Shown piece by piece: positions 23,349-30,557 of a DNA stretch of 64,000 bases. The position numbers were made by a program, and so were the translations under genes. This DNA is from Bacillus marasmi (GTDB lineage Bacteria; Bacillota; Bacilli; Bacillales; Cytobacillaceae). The notes beneath the pieces are model-generated. The model was not told the origin of the DNA. It made no database searches and worked only from the letters and a program-made list of their open reading frames with translations. Numbering within the stretch: the stretch's first letter is position 1; the number at the start of each line of letters is the position of its first letter. The DNA is taken from contig NZ_LR656178.1 of NCBI RefSeq assembly GCF_902168435.1, forward strand, positions 1-64,000, written 5' to 3'.

Positions 23349-23597
23349 TTAAAATGGGAGGTCGTCAGAGGGAAGCGGGGCTTGAACAATTTTTAGTACT
23401 TGCTCAGTAATATCCTTTTCGTTATTCCAGATAACCTTTTCGATAATGGTTGGACGAAAGCCTGTTTCCATTTTCATTTTTTTAATCCACTGATAGGCAA
23501 TCATCGGGATGTCTTCTTCCCTCCAAACCTTAAAATCACCTCCACACATGCAGCGATTTCCATCTATATTTAAATTTACTTGTAGATTGATATTCAG
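23349..23597 (-). CDS. Small conserved-looking protein of unknown function
   Basis: The product of about 82 residues has a CxC pair near the N-terminus (NRCMCGGDF) and alternating strands and helices. I do not recognise a family. The frame can be read from TTG at 23636, but a TATAAT-like box lies inside that part, and a strong GGAAAGGAG sits 9 bp before an in-frame CTG at 23597. I therefore favour the rarer CTG start. The sequence composition is protein-like throughout. Confidence 0.55.
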   Translation of the reverse strand: MNINLQVNLNIDGNRCMCGGDFKVWREEDIPMIAYQWIKKMKMETGFRPTIIEKVIWNNEKDITEQVLKIVQAPLPSDDLPF

Positions 23598-23792
23598 CTT
23601 CCCCGACTCCTTTCCATATATATTATACCCGAACAAGCGTTCTTTTTTCTGTTTGTATCGAAATATATTTTCTGGTAATAAGCACGTACATCTTTATATT
23701 ATCTTGATGCCGAGTCTTCATTCCTTTACGCTACCTTTATCTCATTTTTGTTAAGATGTAATTGAAAGGTGTAAAGATAGGAGTGAGCTACG

Positions 23793-23882
23793 ATGATTGT
23801 CGTAATGGATAAAGTTAGCTTACTGGCGTTTGTCATCCTATTCTATTTTTTCTTTTTCTGGTTTTGGAACGATGAATGGTAA
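23793..23882 (+). CDS. 29-residue membrane peptide upstream of the KdpD-like kinase
   Basis: A short frame starts at ATG behind AGGAGTGAGCTACG and encodes one very hydrophobic helix (VSLLAFVILFYFFFFWFW) ending in NDEW. Its size and single span recall KdpF, the small subunit of the Kdp potassium pump, and it lies 117 bp before a KdpD-like kinase. No kdpABC genes are present, and I cannot show homology. It may be an accessory peptide of the kinase or of the P-type ATPase downstream. Confidence 0.55.
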   Translation: MIVVMDKVSLLAFVILFYFFFFWFWNDEW

Positions 23883-23999
23883 TTTATGCGTAAATGAAGC
23901 TACAAAAAATTTTACACTCCTTAAAAACGGGAGTAGGATTAAATTAAAACTTTTTATATTTTTTCCTATGGATATCCTTTTATGTTTGGAGTGAGACTA

Positions 24000-25463
24000 A
24001 TGGATCGAAAGCTGATGGTCAAAAGGGTAATTCTGCAATTAGTAATTATGCTTTATCTCCATATTTCATCGATGCTATTATCGATGCTCATCCAACATTT
24101 GGGATTTTCAGAGGTTTGTATTGTTGTCATATATCTATTATCTGTCCTCATTACGTCTCGATATACCCAGGGGTACACCTATGGCATTATCGCTTCGTTT
24201 TTTTCAATGTTATCCTTCAACTTTTTTTTCACTGGACCGCGTTATACCTTCAAGGTCGATGATACCAACTATTTATTTACATTAATGATTATGCTGATGG
24301 CTTCTATTTTTACAAGCGCCCTGACGAGTAAGTTGATTCGGTCTAAGGAGCTTGCTAATGAAAAGGAGAAACTGGCGCAATTGCTTTATCAAATCACAAG
24401 CATGCTCGCAAAAACTGGTGGGGTTGCAGAGGTTGCAAAAGTATCTGTCCAATGTCTTTCTAATTTATTACATTGTGAAGCGACACTTGTTGTGATTAAT
24501 TCTAAATTAAATAAAGCGCAAATAGTTACCTCCAAAATGGAAAAAAGGGTTATTGAAGCAACAGATGTAAATATGGATGGAATGAAAGAGATTACTGCTG
24601 ATCAATATACTTTTCCGATAAAGGTTCATGATAAGATTGTGTGTTTTGTATGCTTACCGAAGGAATTTAAGAATCTTTCGAGTGATAAGAAAATACTTTT
24701 GGATTCGGCCATTATGCAAATAACGATTGCGATGGAACGCGAGCTACTTACTAGTGAAAAGGAGGCAGCGAAAGGAGAAACGGAACGCGAACGATTGAAG
24801 AGCCATCTTCTTCGAGTCATTTCTCATGATATTCGAACACCGTTGACTGGTATTACAGGAGCAGCAGAAATCTTACTGCACCATTTAAACAATGATGAAG
24901 AAATTAAGCTGGTAGAAGGGATTTATGAAGATTCTTGTTGGCTAACTCGATTAGTTGAAAACATTTTGAGCCTTACGCGGATTCAAGAGGGCAGGTTAAC
25001 TGTCAACATTCAACAGGAAGCGGTTGAAGAAATCGTAGCTGAGGCTATTTATCGCGCCGCAAAGTATGCGCCTCACCATAATATTTCGAGTACAGTCCCA
25101 GATGAAGTGTTGTTTGTACCTATGGATGGAAAACTGATTGAGCAAGTGTTAATTAATTTAATCGAAAATGCCATTAAGCACACATCAACAGCAAATGAAA
25201 TAGCCGTTCTTGTACAGCGTGATGATGATAAGGTTTGGTTTTCAGTCAGTGACAATGGTACTGGACTAAATGAAGCAGATATTCCAAAACTATTTGATAT
25301 GTTTTTTGTGGCGAATAGTTCACCGCTTGATTCTAAGAGAGGAATTGGATTAGGATTAGCAATCTGCAAAGCAATTGTTACTTTTCATGGTGGTGAAATA
25401 TTTGCCGAAAATAATCGTGCGGGTGGTTCGACATTTCGCTTTTATTTAAACATGAAAGATTAA
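24000..25463 (+). CDS. KdpD-like sensor histidine kinase (DUF4118 type, truncated at the N-terminus)
   Basis: The 487-residue kinase begins with four membrane spans of the KdpD/DUF4118 type (about residues 8-110), then a GAF-like segment (about 130-245), the HisKA motif with H276 (SHDIRTPLTG) and an ATPase domain (N-box NLIENAIKH, DNGTGL, GIGLGLAIC). Full KdpD also carries N-terminal KdpD and USP domains, which are missing here. Potassium or turgor sensing is therefore an inference from the membrane domain and the neighbouring ion genes. The start is ATG 24000 with GGAG 8 bp upstream, not the ATG at 23982. Confidence 0.88.
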   Translation: MDRKLMVKRVILQLVIMLYLHISSMLLSMLIQHLGFSEVCIVVIYLLSVLITSRYTQGYTYGIIASFFSMLSFNFFFTGPRYTFKVDDTNYLFTLMIMLMASIFTSALTSKLIRSKELANEKEKLAQLLYQITSMLAKTGGVAEVAKVSVQCLSNLLHCEATLVVINSKLNKAQIVTSKMEKRVIEATDVNMDGMKEITADQYTFPIKVHDKIVCFVCLPKEFKNLSSDKKILLDSAIMQITIAMERELLTSEKEAAKGETERERLKSHLLRVISHDIRTPLTGITGAAEILLHHLNNDEEIKLVEGIYEDSCWLTRLVENILSLTRIQEGRLTVNIQQEAVEEIVAEAIYRAAKYAPHHNISSTVPDEVLFVPMDGKLIEQVLINLIENAIKHTSTANEIAVLVQRDDDKVWFSVSDNGTGLNEADIPKLFDMFFVANSSPLDSKRGIGLGLAICKAIVTFHGGEIFAENNRAGGSTFRFYLNMKD

Positions 25464-25556
25464 TTGGATTGTATTAAATCTGGAGGAACAATGTGATTTA
25501 TCTAGTATAATGGATTAAATTGGGAATGCTCGTCAGAACTGAGAGGGGGTTTTCAT

Positions 25557-26242
25557 ATGGGATTAGTATTTTTAATAGTTGAGGATGATGAAAAAATCAG
25601 AAAGTTTATTAACTTCTCGCTTAAATCCCAAGATTATGAATGTGTCGAGGCAGCGACTGGAGAGAAAGCGTTGGGCATTATCGCTGTAGAGAACCTTGAT
25701 GCAATCATACTAGATTTAGGACTTCCAGATATGGATGGGATAGATATTATCAAACAGGTGCGGGAGTTTTCGGATATACCAATTATTGTCGTATCGGCCC
25801 GTGATCAAGATTATGAAAAGGTGGAAGCGCTCGATGTCGGCGCTGATGATTATCTGACGAAACCATTCAGCATTAAGGAGTTACATGCGCGTATTCGTGT
25901 TGTGCTAAGACATAAAAAAAATAAACAAGAGCATGTTCCAATAGTGTTCCAAGTAGGCGAGCTTGAGGTGAATCTTGAAAAACATAAGGTCACGCTAGCG
26001 GGAAGAGAGGTTTTACGCCAATGGAATATAACGTACTTATTTTATTATTAAAAAACCATGGAAAGGTGTTAACTCATAAATACATATTAAAGGACGTGTG
26101 GGGTGGTTCCTATTTGGAGAGCGATGTTCAATCACTCCGTGTGTTCATGGCAAATATTAGACGAAAGTTAGAGGAAAACCCTGCCAAGCCTCGATATATT
26201 TTAACAGAAGTTGGAATTGGTTACCGCTTTGCAGATGATTAA
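25557..26242 (+). pseudogene. KdpE-like OmpR-family response regulator, frameshifted
   Basis: Two reading frames together give one regulator. The first (25557-26051) has a complete receiver with D53 (ILDLGLPDMDG) and the start of the DNA-binding domain up to LAGREV. The second resumes the family pattern in another frame (TPMEYNVLILLLKNHGKVL ... GIGYRFADD). The break is near 26010-26020, in GAGGTTTTACGCCAATGG, where family members have the pattern V-x-LTP-x-E. A loss of one or four bases explains it. As read, the winged helix is lost and the protein ends with unrelated residues. It may be a real mutation, a sequence error or, less likely, recoding. It lies 93 bp after the kinase gene. Confidence 0.85.
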
Positions 26243-26315
26243 ACACATTTTTATTTAATCTTTATACATAGGTGAAATTGCTAACACAATTTTAATATAA
26301 ACCCCACTAAGCTAA

Positions 26316-26352
26316 AAGTGAGGTAACATGATTTCTAACGTTGTTATCACTT
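26316..26352 (+). promoter_or_regulatory. Stem-loop in the leader of the P-type ATPase gene
   Basis: AAGTGA(GG)TAACA pairs with TGTTATCACTT around an 11-nt loop, with a GG bulge. It is followed by G-rich sequence and the ATPase ribosome binding site. It has no T-tract and matches no riboswitch that I can identify. Confidence 0.4.
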
Positions 26353-26409
26353 GCATTTTGGGACATTGGGGGGATTACATTGAGGGGAACTCGTGGAGGA
26401 ACTTTATTA

Positions 26410-29280
26410 ATGGATACAAAAAATGAGGGGAATAATGTTGAGCAATCGATTCCTGAACTGGTTCCAAGCCAGGTTTTTGAAATGCTACAAACTAGCGAAG
26501 ATGGCTTAACAACGGACGAAGTAACAAAGAGGCTTATGCAATATGGAAAAAATACGATTAAGGAAAAGCAAGGGAAGCCATTATATAGGCAGTTTTTTGC
26601 AAATTTTACTAGCTTGATGGCGATTCTATTATGGATAAGCGGTGGAATTGCATTCTTTGCAAAAATGCCTGAATTGGGTATAGCAGTTTGGTGTGTCAAT
26701 TTTATTAATGGGATTTTTAGTTTTATTCAAGAATATCGAGCCGGAAAAGCTACCGAGGCATTAAAAGGAATGCTAGCTTCCTACGCGCGTGTCATACGAG
26801 AAGGTAAAGAAACCCAAATTCTTACGGATGAACTTGTTCCAGGAGATGTCATGCTTTTAGAGGAAGGCGATAAAATATCGGCTGATGCACGTTTAATTAA
26901 GTCCAGCGATTTACAAATCAATCAATCTGCGCTCACGGGTGAATCCAATCCAGTTCGAAAATTTGCCGATTCGATTCACCAAAATGATTTAACTAGCTTT
27001 GAAACTTCTAATCTTATTTATACAGGAAGCACCGTTTCCAGCGGCTCTGGACAAGCTATCGTGATGAAGACCGGAATGGAAACAGAATTTGGGAAAATTG
27101 CTAAACTAACACAGAACGTTGTTCATGAATTGAGTCCGTTACAAAAGGAATTAAATCGATTGACGAAACAAATCTCGATCATAGCTCTTGGATTCGGAGT
27201 CACTTTCTTTTTATTAGCTATTTTCTTTGTAAAAAACCCAGTTGCGGAATCATTCATCTTTGCTCTTGGTATGATTGTCGCTTTTATACCAGAGGGGTTA
27301 TCTCCAACAGTGACATTGGCATTGGCGCAAGGTGTTCAGCGCATGGCAAAGAAAAATGGTCTTGTTAAAAATCTTTCTGCTGTTGAAACTCTGGGATGTA
27401 CGTCTGTGATTTGTACTGATAAAACGGGTACCTTAACACAAAACGAAATGACAGTTAACCACATTTGGCTTCCTGATCGAGAATTAGAGGTAACGGGTAC
27501 CGGATATGCTTCAGTAGGAAATGTCCTTGACAAAGGTGAAGTCATAACAGCAGATTTGGATTCTGCGCTAAGATTGATATTATCAGCAGCTAGTCTATGT
27601 AGTAACGCGAGAGTATTACCACCAAATGAAAACAATCAATCTTATACCGTGCTCGGCGACCCTACTGAAGCTAGTTTAGGAGTCGTGGCAGAAAAAGCAG
27701 GGATTCACGTTGAAGATTTACAAAAGTTAGTGCCGCGTATTCGTGAATTACACTTTGATTCCAGAAGAAAAAGAATGACAACCATTCATCAGTTATCGGA
27801 CCAAGTAAATGAGGGAAATCGAGTAGCATATACAAAAGGGGCACCTAAAGAACTAATCGATTTATGTGAATCAGTATTTATTAACGGAACAGTATCTCCG
27901 TTTTCAGATGAAATGAAGAGTAGAGCACTTTCTGCTAATGATGAGTATGCCTGTTCGGGATTACGAGTTTTGGCTGTTGCTGTTCGTTATTTAAGTAATG
28001 ATGACCATGATATTCCAACAAATTTGAGCGCCTATTCTCCCGAAATCATTGAGCAAAAAATGACATTTATCGGGTTTGTTGTAATGGCTGACCCACCACG
28101 TCCTGAAGTTACTGAGGCCGTGGCTAAGGCTCATAAAGCAGGAATTCGAATTGTTATGATTACTGGGGATTATGGCTTGACTGCTGAGAGCATTGCGAAA
28201 AGAATTGGTATTGTTGTAGGCGAGCATCCTCGTGTAATTTCTGGAATTGAATTGGAACACATGGACGATGAGGAACTAAAAACTGCTTTAAAAGGAGAAG
28301 TAATATTTGCTCGTGTCGCGCCTGAGCAAAAATACCGCGTTGTAGAAACTTTGCAACAAATGGGAGAAATTGTTGCGGTTACAGGAGATGGGGTAAACGA
28401 TGCTCCAGCTTTGAAAAAGGCAGATATCGGTGTGGCAATGGGAATCTCTGGGACTGATGTGGCTAAAGAAGCGGCTGATATGATCTTAACCGATGATAAT
28501 TTTGCTTCAATTGTTCATGCTGTGGAGCAAGGACGAGCTGTGTATAACAATATTCGCAAGTTTTTGCTTTATATTTTAAACAGCAATATGCCAGAGGCGG
28601 TCCCATCAGCATTTTTCTTATTTTCCAAAGGGACAGTTCCATTGCCGTTAACCATCATGCAAATTTTATTTGTTGACCTGGGAACAGACTTAATACCTGC
28701 TTTAGGGTTAGGGTCAGAGGAACCGGAAAAGGAGATTATGAATAAACCACCACGAAATTTAAAGGAACCGTTATTGAATAAAAGAATCATTATAAAAGCA
28801 TTTGGTTGGTATGGTATTTTGGCATCCTCCGTCTCAATGTTTGCTTATTTTTTAGTTAATTATATTAACGGATATTCATTAGGAGGGTTAGCTGAGGAAG
28901 GTAGTAATGTTTATACGATAGCGACGACAATGACCCTAGCAGGTATAGTATTTAGTCAAATAGGTGCGGTCATGAACTGCCGAACAGAAAACCAATCTAT
29001 CTTTTATAAAGGACTATGGAAAAATCACACAATAAATCTTGGTATCATCGTAGAAATCATCTTCCTCATCATGATTATGTATGTGCCGTTCTTGCAGGAT
29101 GCATTTGGCACCGCACCTATTGGAATGACAGATTGGTTGTTTCTTATTAGCATTCCGCCACTTATTGTAGCAATTGAAGAAATTCGCAAAGCAATCTCGA
29201 GGAAGTTGGCTCAAAATCATGAAAATCCAAAAAAATTGGGAAAGGATGAAAATGATGAGGGCTATAATCGTTGGATGTAG
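26410..29280 (+). CDS. P2-type cation-transporting ATPase with Na,K-ATPase-like ion site
   Basis: The 956-residue pump has the full P-type plan: LTGES, phosphorylation site D337 (CTDKTGTLT), TGD (about 588) and the GDGVNDAPAL hinge, with about ten spans. Residues in the membrane core match Na,K-ATPase rather than Ca-ATPase: E295 in PEGL (M4), S725-N726 and E729 in NSNMPEAVP (M5), and D756 with D760 in FVDLGTD (M6). SERCA has Asn at the first of the two M6 positions. K+ or Na+ transport is therefore more likely than Ca2+. The ATG at 26410 follows GGAGGA by 9 bp. The gene overlaps the first of two RCK genes. Confidence 0.9.
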   Translation: MDTKNEGNNVEQSIPELVPSQVFEMLQTSEDGLTTDEVTKRLMQYGKNTIKEKQGKPLYRQFFANFTSLMAILLWISGGIAFFAKMPELGIAVWCVNFINGIFSFIQEYRAGKATEALKGMLASYARVIREGKETQILTDELVPGDVMLLEEGDKISADARLIKSSDLQINQSALTGESNPVRKFADSIHQNDLTSFETSNLIYTGSTVSSGSGQAIVMKTGMETEFGKIAKLTQNVVHELSPLQKELNRLTKQISIIALGFGVTFFLLAIFFVKNPVAESFIFALGMIVAFIPEGLSPTVTLALAQGVQRMAKKNGLVKNLSAVETLGCTSVICTDKTGTLTQNEMTVNHIWLPDRELEVTGTGYASVGNVLDKGEVITADLDSALRLILSAASLCSNARVLPPNENNQSYTVLGDPTEASLGVVAEKAGIHVEDLQKLVPRIRELHFDSRRKRMTTIHQLSDQVNEGNRVAYTKGAPKELIDLCESVFINGTVSPFSDEMKSRALSANDEYACSGLRVLAVAVRYLSNDDHDIPTNLSAYSPEIIEQKMTFIGFVVMADPPRPEVTEAVAKAHKAGIRIVMITGDYGLTAESIAKRIGIVVGEHPRVISGIELEHMDDEELKTALKGEVIFARVAPEQKYRVVETLQQMGEIVAVTGDGVNDAPALKKADIGVAMGISGTDVAKEAADMILTDDNFASIVHAVEQGRAVYNNIRKFLLYILNSNMPEAVPSAFFLFSKGTVPLPLTIMQILFVDLGTDLIPALGLGSEEPEKEIMNKPPRNLKEPLLNKRIIIKAFGWYGILASSVSMFAYFLVNYINGYSLGGLAEEGSNVYTIATTMTLAGIVFSQIGAVMNCRTENQSIFYKGLWKNHTINLGIIVEIIFLIMIMYVPFLQDAFGTAPIGMTDWLFLISIPPLIVAIEEIRKAISRKLAQNHENPKKLGKDENDEGYNRWM

Positions 29281-29902
29281 TCATATGGGTGCTGGATTGG
29301 CGATGAACCTCCAGGCAAAGGGGCATGAAGTCACTATTATCGATCGTGAGAAAGATGCCTTTAAAAAATTGCCGAAAGTGTTCCATGGGCAAACGATCGT
29401 TGGTTTTGGGATTGATAAAAAAACTCTAGAGGCTGTACAAATTCATCTGGCAGATGCAGTAATTACTTGTACAGACAACGATGAAACTAACGCCTTACTT
29501 GCTAGAATTGCAAAAAATGAATATCGTGTCCCGCAGGTTATCGCTAGGATTTATGACCCGCGCAAGGCAGATATTTATCAAAGTTTTGGAATTCAAACAA
29601 TTTCCTCAATTGCTTGGGGAATTCAAAGAGTTACAGAATTATTAAGCTACAATCAATTTGATAGTGTTTGGATTCCGGATAATGGAAAGGTTGAAATGAT
29701 TCGCATTGAATCGCCCGCATTGTTAATTGGTCATCCCGTAAGAGAGTTGACAAGTGCTGGTGAAATTAAGGTCGTTACGATTACTCGAAATAACAAAGCG
29801 TTTATCCCAGTATCTGGAACGACTATAAAAGCGTATGATGTTTTGTATCTTGTTGTTGCTACTTCGGCTATTCAAAAACTAAAGGCAATGCTTGGACGTT
29901 AG
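29255..29902 (+). CDS. TrkA/KtrA-like RCK protein 1
   Basis: The protein of about 215 residues has an RCK_N Rossmann domain (IIVGCSHMGAGLA, then acidic IIDREKD) and an RCK_C domain from about residue 135. Such proteins bind NAD(H), ADP/ATP or c-di-AMP and gate potassium channels. The start is within the end of the ATPase gene (ATG 29255 or 29252, behind AAAGGA), so the two are translationally coupled by a 26-bp overlap. No TrkH/KtrB membrane subunit is present here. The glycine motif is relaxed (GCSHMG). Confidence 0.87.
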   Translation: MRAIIVGCSHMGAGLAMNLQAKGHEVTIIDREKDAFKKLPKVFHGQTIVGFGIDKKTLEAVQIHLADAVITCTDNDETNALLARIAKNEYRVPQVIARIYDPRKADIYQSFGIQTISSIAWGIQRVTELLSYNQFDSVWIPDNGKVEMIRIESPALLIGHPVRELTSAGEIKVVTITRNNKAFIPVSGTTIKAYDVLYLVVATSAIQKLKAMLGR

Positions 29903-29915
29903 GGGGATGAAGCCA

Positions 29916-30557
29916 ATGAATGTAATCATTATTGGTGGAGGTCAAGCTGGTTCACATATTGGGCACTTATTACAAGATAATGAAATAAACATCAAAATTA
30001 TCGAGGTTCGAGACATTCTCTATCAAAAGTTATCAAGAGATTTTCCTTCGGAAGTAGTTGTTTTAGGAAGTGGTACTGATCCTTATTCATTAGAGTCAGC
30101 TGGTATTGAAGAGGCGGATGTTCTTGTTGCAGTAACTGGCAGCGACGAGGTCAATCTAGTAGCTGCCACAATTGCAAAGTTTGAATTTGCGGTTCCCCGT
30201 GTTGTAGCACGTGTAAACAACCCTAATAATACATGGCTGTATAATACAGAAATGGGTGTAGATGTAGCTATCAACCAATCAGAATTACTCGCGCAAATAG
30301 TGGTTGGAGAAATGGATTTGCAGCATATCCCGACCTTGATGAAACTGAATCGGGGTAATCTATCGATTGTTAAACTATATGTCAATTCCGAATCGAGGGC
30401 TATCTCAAAATCAATAAAAGAGCTAATCATTCCTTCAAAATGTGTCCTGATTGCCATTCTGCGTGATGAAGACCAAGTCATTATCCCAAGAGGTGATACG
30501 ATTATTGAAGCAAATGATTATATTTTGTTGCTAGCAGATGAAAGTGCCAAGAAATAA
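29916..30557 (+). CDS. TrkA/KtrA-like RCK protein 2
   Basis: This second RCK protein, of about 213 residues, has a canonical nucleotide-binding start (IIIGGGQAGSHIG, acidic E at the end of strand 2) and an RCK_C domain (about 135-213). It lies 13 bp after its paralogue, with ATG 29916 behind AGGGGG. Two different RCK proteins next to a P-type ATPase suggest a hetero-oligomeric gating ring for the pump or for a distant transporter. The direct partner is not known from sequence. Confidence 0.9.
   Translation: MNVIIIGGGQAGSHIGHLLQDNEINIKIIEVRDILYQKLSRDFPSEVVVLGSGTDPYSLESAGIEEADVLVAVTGSDEVNLVAATIAKFEFAVPRVVARVNNPNNTWLYNTEMGVDVAINQSELLAQIVVGEMDLQHIPTLMKLNRGNLSIVKLYVNSESRAISKSIKELIIPSKCVLIAILRDEDQVIIPRGDTIIEANDYILLLADESAKK

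Follow-up and report, generated by a model that had tools for sequence, protein, structure and literature searches.

An RCK-linked, P2C-like P-type ATPase cassette in Bacillus marasmi and its relatives: a candidate K+/Na+ pump under RCK control

We analyzed a stretch of 64,000 nucleotides from Bacillus marasmi (contig NZ_LR656178.1, positions 1 to 64,000 of the forward strand, hereafter the window), which lies on contig 43 of a 4.64 Mb genome assembled in 46 contigs. Within positions 23793–30557 all genes lie on the plus strand, and they encode a P-type ATPase followed by two TrkA-type RCK proteins, here designated RCK1 and RCK2; upstream of these lie an open reading frame for a 29-residue peptide and genes for a KdpD-like kinase and a KdpE-like regulator (Table 1). 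The end of the ATPase gene is overlapped by the start of RCK1 by 26 bases, RCK2 starts after a gap of 13 bases behind RCK1, and 167 bases separate the regulator from the pump gene. A first-pass annotation of this DNA, made from the letters alone, had placed all genes correctly, and its observations that the ATPase gene overlaps the first RCK gene and that no Trk/Ktr membrane subunit is present at the locus were both borne out. TrkH/KtrB is absent from the window, and the two TrkH/KtrB genes of the genome sit on other contigs; the genome further contains nine matches to E1-E2_ATPase and six to TrkA_C. No beta subunit was seen beside the ATPase, the genome at large not having been searched for one.

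Table 1. Features in the region 23793–30557 of the window
Feature	Position	Strand	Basis and remarks
Possible membrane peptide, 29 residues	23793..23882	+	Open reading frame; no NCBIfam match; module membership unsupported
KdpD-like histidine kinase, C-terminal half only	23982..25463	+	Pfam DUF4118, HisKA, HATPase; outside the conserved module
KdpE-like response regulator, receiver piece	25557..26051	+	Pfam receiver; gene frameshifted
KdpE-like response regulator, DNA-binding piece	26021..26242	+	Pfam Trans_reg_C; different frame from receiver
Ribosome-binding site GGAGG of the ATPase gene	26395..26399	+	GGAGG or GGGGG in 7/7 aligned relatives
P-type ATPase, P2C-like (Na,K-ATPase-type cation site), 956 residues	26410..29280	+	ATG to stop; Pfam E1-E2_ATPase, Cation_ATPase_N, Cation_ATPase_C; module core
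RCK1, TrkA_N and TrkA_C, 215 residues	29255..29902	+	Pfam; best solved match TM1088A
RCK2, TrkA_N and TrkA_C, 213 residues	29916..30557	+	Pfam; best solved match the TrkA C-terminal half, then TM1088B

The ATPase-RCK1-RCK2 cassette is found in 21 genomes, namely in the window and at 20 further loci, of which 17 (L050–L054, L058, L060, L066–L069 and L096–L101 in our numbering) are joined by three that were found via RCK1 (L136–L138). The gene order is kept throughout, and the gene directly before RCK1 is the ATPase in all 21 cassettes. Across these cassettes the identity to the window ranges from 44 to 84% for the ATPase, from 34 to 83% for RCK1 and from 34 to 76% for RCK2, and the pairwise distances of the three proteins correlate at 0.90–0.95, values that are uncorrected for shared descent. 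A scan of the named genome contigs with the ATPase returned 15 loci. ATPase orthologues of at least 78% identity were detected in 5 of 151 genomes of the family, the window included. The searches at higher ranks employed stricter cut-offs, which differ between searches, and gave 12 of 397 genomes for the order (three above 60% identity, window included, the rest at about 40%), 4 of 398 for the class, where the three besides the window lack RCKs, and 7 of 299 for the phylum, where the six besides the window possess them. The distribution is patchy. L098, L099, L100 and L138 belong to the same genus, have flanking genes in common and are near relatives; among most of the other cassette groups the flanking genes differ. 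The recurrence of ATPase, RCK1 and RCK2 exceeds chance, and the comparison supports a conserved module composed of a P2C-like ATPase and two RCK proteins. In L067 (8100–10911) two overlapping frames carry the ATPase gene, the break lying close to the 3′ end. A further arrangement of this kind lies on a Streptomyces fungicidicus megaplasmid (L156, NZ_CP023408.1, 293499–308137), where two Usp genes, a hypothetical gene, an ATPase gene and two TrkA genes, named here by family annotation only, follow each other with 4-base overlaps. This cassette is surrounded by genes for universal stress proteins, Hsp20 and a nitroreductase, a neighbourhood which we take to resemble a dormancy or hypoxia gene set.

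We compared the ATPase to characterized pumps by similarity and by phylogeny. Among solved structures it matches the Na,K-ATPase alpha subunit best with 541 bits, followed by the Listeria Ca2+ pump LMCA1 (510), SPCA1 (506) and SERCA (470). In NCBIfam, the IIC model (642.9 bits) and the PMR1-type IIA2 model for Ca2+ pumps (642.2 bits) score nearly the same, both under their own cut-offs. Two trees recovered one branch, supported at 100/100, with Na,K-ATPase, the ATPase clade and additional P2C-like pumps of bacteria on one side and LMCA1, SPCA1 and the Ca2+-pump-like rows of Bacillaceae on the other, and in the second tree all 31 non-Ca2+ rows, Na,K-ATPase among them, fall on the same side of it. 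These trees comprise three reference pumps and long branches, with neither an outgroup nor P2B and P2D references; for the second one near-duplicate ATPases were thinned beforehand, and L048, although named in a group, lies outside that tree. A grouping of the ATPase with Ca2+ pumps, which had been set beforehand as the outcome that speaks against a role in K+ or Na+ transport, was not seen. The cyanobacterial plasmids L159 and L160 likewise encode P2C-like pumps with S-N-x-x-E and D-x-G-T-D motifs and have no RCK gene within 4 kb; these pumps share a branch with a second P2C-like clade of the window's order.

The residues of the cation site were read as alignment columns from 30 rows of the clade (20 RCK-linked, 10 without RCK) and nine Ca2+-type rows, with Na,K-ATPase residues under their customary names (E327, S775, N776, E779, D804 and D808; Y771, T807, Q923, D926 and E954). 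The window ATPase agrees with Na,K-ATPase at E295, Y721, S725, N726, P728, E729, D756, G758, T759, D760, Q850 and E882 and differs from it at I722 and A853. The equivalents of the site I and II residues E327, S775, N776, E779, D804 and D808 are all present, and of site III the Y, T, Q and E are found and the D926 equivalent is not. The first-pass annotation had regarded E295, S725, N726, E729, D756 and D760 as a Na,K-ATPase signature. All six are present with this numbering, and D756 is indeed diagnostic, but the other five also occur in Ca2+-type pumps: E295, Y721, S725, N726, E729, T759, D760 and Q850 are each found in seven to nine of the nine Ca2+-type rows, and E295, S725, N726, E729 and D760 are common to all seven Bacillaceae-type Ca2+-pump-like rows. 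D756 and G758, by contrast, are present in 30/30 clade rows and in 0/9 Ca2+-type rows, all nine of which carry Asn at the former and Val or Ile at the latter position. P728 and E882, which Ca2+-type rows replace by Gly or Ala and by Ser or Cys, respectively, are less strict discriminators; they occur in 19 and 26 of the 30 clade rows. Among the 20 RCK-linked rows E327, E779 and D804 are each kept in all 20, N776 and D808 in 16 and S775 in 13. A His occupies the S725 position in the deep RCK-linked rows L090, L091, L092, L138, L093, L136 and L137. The M5 His is also seen in L156, and four of these deep-branch pumps add Leu for Asn and Glu for Asp.

Such residues do not prove K+ counter-transport, and P-type Na+-ATPases have been reported in Exiguobacterium and Anabaena (PMC2928168). 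The pump might be a plain Na+ exporter serving in salt or alkali stress, with RCKs that only tune it and K+ not being a substrate. This explanation overlaps with the one that we favour below; we consider it rather unlikely, because the site I and II residues match those of Na,K-ATPase and because RCK control elsewhere is, in the literature sampled, mostly control of K+ systems.

To judge whether the RCK proteins belong to the pump or to a TrkH-type transporter, we searched with RCK1 alone in 398 genomes, 99 of which gave a match at 1e-15 or better. The ten best matches, including the window, all adjoin an ATPase gene. For the matches ranked 11–35, 17 of the 25 loci were examined, and lower matches were covered where they fell in fetched loci; of the RCK pairs at these 17 loci, 11 sit beside TrkH and six beside a carrier of permease-like type accompanied by a Usp protein. 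The genes submitted to Pfam were seven of those for TrkH, one for a carrier (AA_permease_2) and two for Usp proteins; the other TrkH genes were assigned by profile and the other carriers by eye. The TrkH profile detected TrkH in all 11 TrkH-linked loci, five of which were outside the profile build, and gave no match in any of the 20 ATPase-RCK loci. It replaced a phmmer search with the genome's KtrB, which was too weak as a test for Trk subunits and missed 10 of the 11 TrkH genes. The second outcome named in advance as contrary, RCK genes that sit mostly next to KtrB/TrkH in relatives, did not materialize either: orthologous RCKs adjoin the ATPase, and distant ones adjoin TrkH or the carrier.

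For phylogenetic trees of the RCK proteins, two weak RCK-like open reading frames of L149 were dropped, the fused RCK frame of L142 was divided into its two parts, and N-termini that were long were shortened. The ATPase-linked RCK2 proteins form a separate lineage, with 21/21 rows on one side of a branch supported at 99/99, and for RCK1 a single ATPase-linked clade is not rejected (approximately unbiased test, p 0.549). These data bear on the possibility that the RCK pair regulates another K+ transporter, such as a KtrB or TrkH encoded elsewhere, and that the pump is merely co-expressed in a K+/Na+ response. KtrA-type proteins need not be encoded next to their partner, two TrkH/KtrB genes are available on other contigs of the window's genome and the more distant RCK pairs are TrkH-linked at 11 loci. 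Against these points stand the separate grouping of the ATPase-linked RCK2s, the lack of TrkH in all 20 cassette loci together with the invariable position of the ATPase directly before RCK1, and three genomes (G988, G1059 and G1107) that own a second, TrkH-linked RCK pair in addition to the ATPase-linked one. We therefore hold regulation of another transporter to be possible but doubtful. In the carrier-linked loci L143, L144, L145, L146, L148 and L150 the RCK pair directly follows the permease-like carrier and the Usp-domain protein; a small membrane protein lies in between in five of the six, and RCK1 is shortened to about 135–140 residues in all six. At L149, L151 and L154 a histidine kinase and a response regulator directly precede the TrkH-linked RCK pair, and control of RCK-transporter operons by two-component systems thus recurs elsewhere.

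Both RCK proteins score above the Pfam cut-offs for TrkA_N and TrkA_C. The best alignment to the TrkA models of NCBIfam covers their first half for RCK1 and their second half for RCK2; in the PDB, RCK1 matches the N-terminal half of TrkA, with TM1088A as its best match, and RCK2 matches the C-terminal half and then TM1088B. The strict GxGxxG motif is present in 21/21 RCK2 and 17/21 RCK1 proteins and a relaxed form in 21/21 of each, the window RCK1 possessing the relaxed form only (GCSHMG). As every RCK2 carries GxGxxG and every RCK1 the strict or the relaxed form, RCK1 and RCK2 are likely to sense nucleotides. TM1088A and TM1088B of Thermotoga maritima assemble into a 4+4 ring with AMP bound to the A protein and serve TrkH (PMC4380455), and a mixed ring is what this example would lead one to expect of RCK1 and RCK2. 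The published c-di-AMP signature (PMC10117811) is matched by 0/38 RCK1 and 0/38 RCK2 rows, but the pattern also misses the KtrA-like and KhtT-like genes of the genome, which were named by eye, and the search is therefore uninformative.

The first-pass annotation had assigned the kinase, the regulator and a peptide of KdpF size to the same module as the pump. The kinase resembles KdpD in its C-terminal half but not in its N-terminal half: Pfam finds DUF4118, HisKA and HATPase only, the N-terminal KdpD and Usp domains were not found, and the NCBIfam KdpD model, matched in its C-terminal part, yields 261 bits versus 1123. The regulator is KdpE-like in its receiver and DNA-binding parts, but the gene is not intact since these parts lie in different frames; the frameshift, at 26010–26050, reflects either a draft error or a decaying gene. 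The peptide exists as an open reading frame at the position given earlier, but its membership in a module is unsupported. It hit no NCBIfam family at E 0.001, with low power for so short a query and in a library not checked for a KdpF model, and no counterpart was seen among the small open reading frames beside three kinase relatives, the sole place where it was sought.

A kinase or regulator directly before the pump was found in none of the 20 cassette loci (phmmer, E 1e-5), although L051 offers only 364 bases of upstream sequence. L097 has a weakly similar kinase/regulator pair about 2 kb upstream of the pump, past two other genes, and in the syntenic relative L050 a homologue of the gene at 23349–23636 directly precedes the ATPase. 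Relatives of the kinase with 34–42% identity occur in 8 of 192 other genomes of the family, and the five that were fetched (40–42% identity) are accompanied by a KdpE-like gene and lie near kimA-like or kdpAB-like genes, as judged by eye. The two-component genes hence hint at K+ control in the window's genome. That the whole of 23793–30557 is one module of peptide, kinase, regulator, pump and two RCKs would fit the single gene direction, the kinase relatives near kimA-like or kdpAB-like genes and the lack of any KdpA match in the genome. We nevertheless find it improbable and rejected the KdpDE/KdpF-like group as a part of the module, given the frameshifted regulator, the 167-base gap, the gene order in L050 and the absence of both two-component genes from the position directly before the pump in 20 loci.

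Control elements were also sought around the cassette. Riboswitches were searched at gathering scores in the window and 25 relatives, which cover 16 of the 20 cassette loci and leave out L100 and L136–L138; the window gave nothing. Lysine riboswitches of L053 and L054 lie upstream of the cassette on the opposite strand. In L066 (683–821) and L067 (191–334), which belong to the same genus, c-di-AMP riboswitches were detected 6–8 kb from the ATPase gene, and the one in L066 is followed by a gene that looks kimA-like by eye. Ahead of the ATPase gene no conserved operator was found, with the ribosome-binding site alone aligning well, and scans for promoters and terminators gave no more than shuffles yield.

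The least probable of the explanations considered is that the ATPase is a Ca2+ (P2A) pump with Ca2+- or nucleotide-sensing RCK partners, which could draw on the equal IIA2 score and on the several cation-site residues common to Ca2+-type pumps but which the 100/100 branch, the exchanges at D756 and G758 and the best structural match to Na,K-ATPase rather than LMCA1 render very unlikely.

We therefore favour, with reasonable though not strong confidence, the interpretation that the ATPase-RCK1-RCK2 cassette is the functional unit and encodes a pump for K+ and Na+ together with a nucleotide-binding RCK ring dedicated to its control. The P2C-like ATPase would most likely export Na+ (or H+) and import K+ at the expense of ATP. 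RCK1 and RCK2 would each stand for one half of TrkA; most likely they build a mixed ring which binds adenine nucleotides and, in the way that TrkA acts on TrkH, turns the pump on or off in response to the energy state or the supply of ions. The presence of the same three genes in bacteria that are only distantly related makes it probable that the pump possesses a sensor of its own. What the comparisons show directly is the gene set with its conservation, the separate RCK lineage, the split from Ca2+-type pumps and the P2C-type residues; the ion species and their direction, the assembly of the ring, its binding of nucleotides and its physical control of the pump are inferred from them. The Kdp-type two-component system, found upstream in the window's genome only, fits a K+ role, yet in relatives it was not found directly before the pump, and its regulator gene is frameshifted. 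A more far-reaching version, to which we give about even chances, holds that the RCK1/RCK2 ring directly gates the P2C pump, so that a nucleotide-sensing device familiar from K+ channels would govern primary active Na+/K+ transport, that the RCK pair is a movable control unit joined to three unrelated transporters (TrkH, the permease-like carrier with Usp, and the P-type pump) and that the RCK link is old in bacterial P2C-like pumps. The last point follows from the spread of RCK-linked pumps, which occur in two phyla and occupy three or more distinct regions of the tree.

Several observations weigh against an RCK-controlled K+/Na+ pump. The score of 642.9 bits falls about 300 short of the cut-off of the curated IIC model TIGR01106 (946.1), and the PMR1-type Ca2+ model scores alike. 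When the second ATPase tree, which has no outgroup, is drawn with a midpoint root, four of the deep RCK-linked rows are placed with the Ca2+ group at weak support (69/98), and RCK-linked pumps require five changes on this tree, at least three of them forced. The RCK1 tree places the long-branched, TrkH-linked row L155 among the ATPase-linked rows, so that two changes are needed. The site III Asp D926 is absent from all 30 clade rows, 20 RCK-linked and 10 without RCK, which makes a third Na+ doubtful. Seven deep RCK-linked rows alter S725, N726 or D760, and since all seven have His in place of S725 the ions used may differ between members of the family; the His-bearing pumps suggest another ion or stoichiometry. 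In the window and the 16 covered loci, the Rfam search placed no riboswitch immediately ahead of the cassette on the same strand. Finally, ten ATPases of the clade lack an adjacent RCK gene (L048, L055–L057, L059, L061, L062 and the loci of G818, G723 and G770; L049, where the contig ends inside the ATPase, was left out of this count), and the best RCK1 match in these ten genomes reaches at most 39.6 bits, RCK2 not having been sought. As these ten clade members exist without RCKs, the RCKs would be regulatory and not needed for pumping, which suggests that they are accessory to the pump. An ATPase copy on a Lactiplantibacillus plasmid has no RCK genes nearby, and the clade ATPase of S. ratti lies without RCKs between genes that look aldehyde-dehydrogenase-like and ilvD-like by eye.

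The role of prokaryotic P2C pumps is an open question, to which a 2023 review devotes a section for archaea (PMC10654040). RCK regulation as described in the sampled texts concerns channels, Trk/Ktr proteins and antiporters, and a search of the open PubMed Central literature yielded no account of a P2-type pump that has RCK proteins encoded next to it or is controlled by them. Where P2C-like pumps are accompanied by a dedicated RCK pair, this would tie such pumps to K+ homeostasis and offers a simple experimental handle on them; RCK control of an ATP-driven pump, if true, would extend RCK regulation to a new class of targets. In addition, the residue argument is put right here, and the conserved cassette is set apart from neighbours peculiar to the window's genome.

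When compared to known systems, the locus resembles KdpFABC with KdpDE in that one stretch holds both a P-type ATPase gene and genes for a KdpDE-type two-component system, in the window's genome only. It differs from that system in that the pump is P2C-like and not KdpB, no KdpA was found in the genome, RCK genes are present instead, and the two-component genes were not found directly before the pump in relatives. In the Streptococcus mutans locus trkB-trk-pacL, TrkA-type genes annotated for K+ transport adjoin a gene for a P-type ATPase (PMC7082836 and PMC9513430). It includes trkB, unlike the cassette, and PacL is likened here by the description of its locus; in view of this locus the cassette might prove less novel. 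With the Na,K-ATPase alpha subunit and other P2C ATPases, which include uncharacterized methanogen forms (PMC10654040), the window ATPase shares its domains, the M4 E, the M5 S-N-x-P-E, the M6 D-L-G-T-D, the M8 Q, the M9 E and its side of the branch against Ca2+-type pumps; it differs in lacking the D926 equivalent, in scoring below the IIC cut-off and in being encoded with two RCK genes. With the TM1088A/TM1088B ring the cassette shares two separate RCK proteins encoded by adjacent genes. RCK1, however, has its own TrkA_C, which TM1088A lacks, and RCK2 keeps GxGxxG, whereas nucleotide did not stabilize TM1088B (PMC4380455). The adjoining transporter gene encodes TrkH there and a P-type ATPase here.

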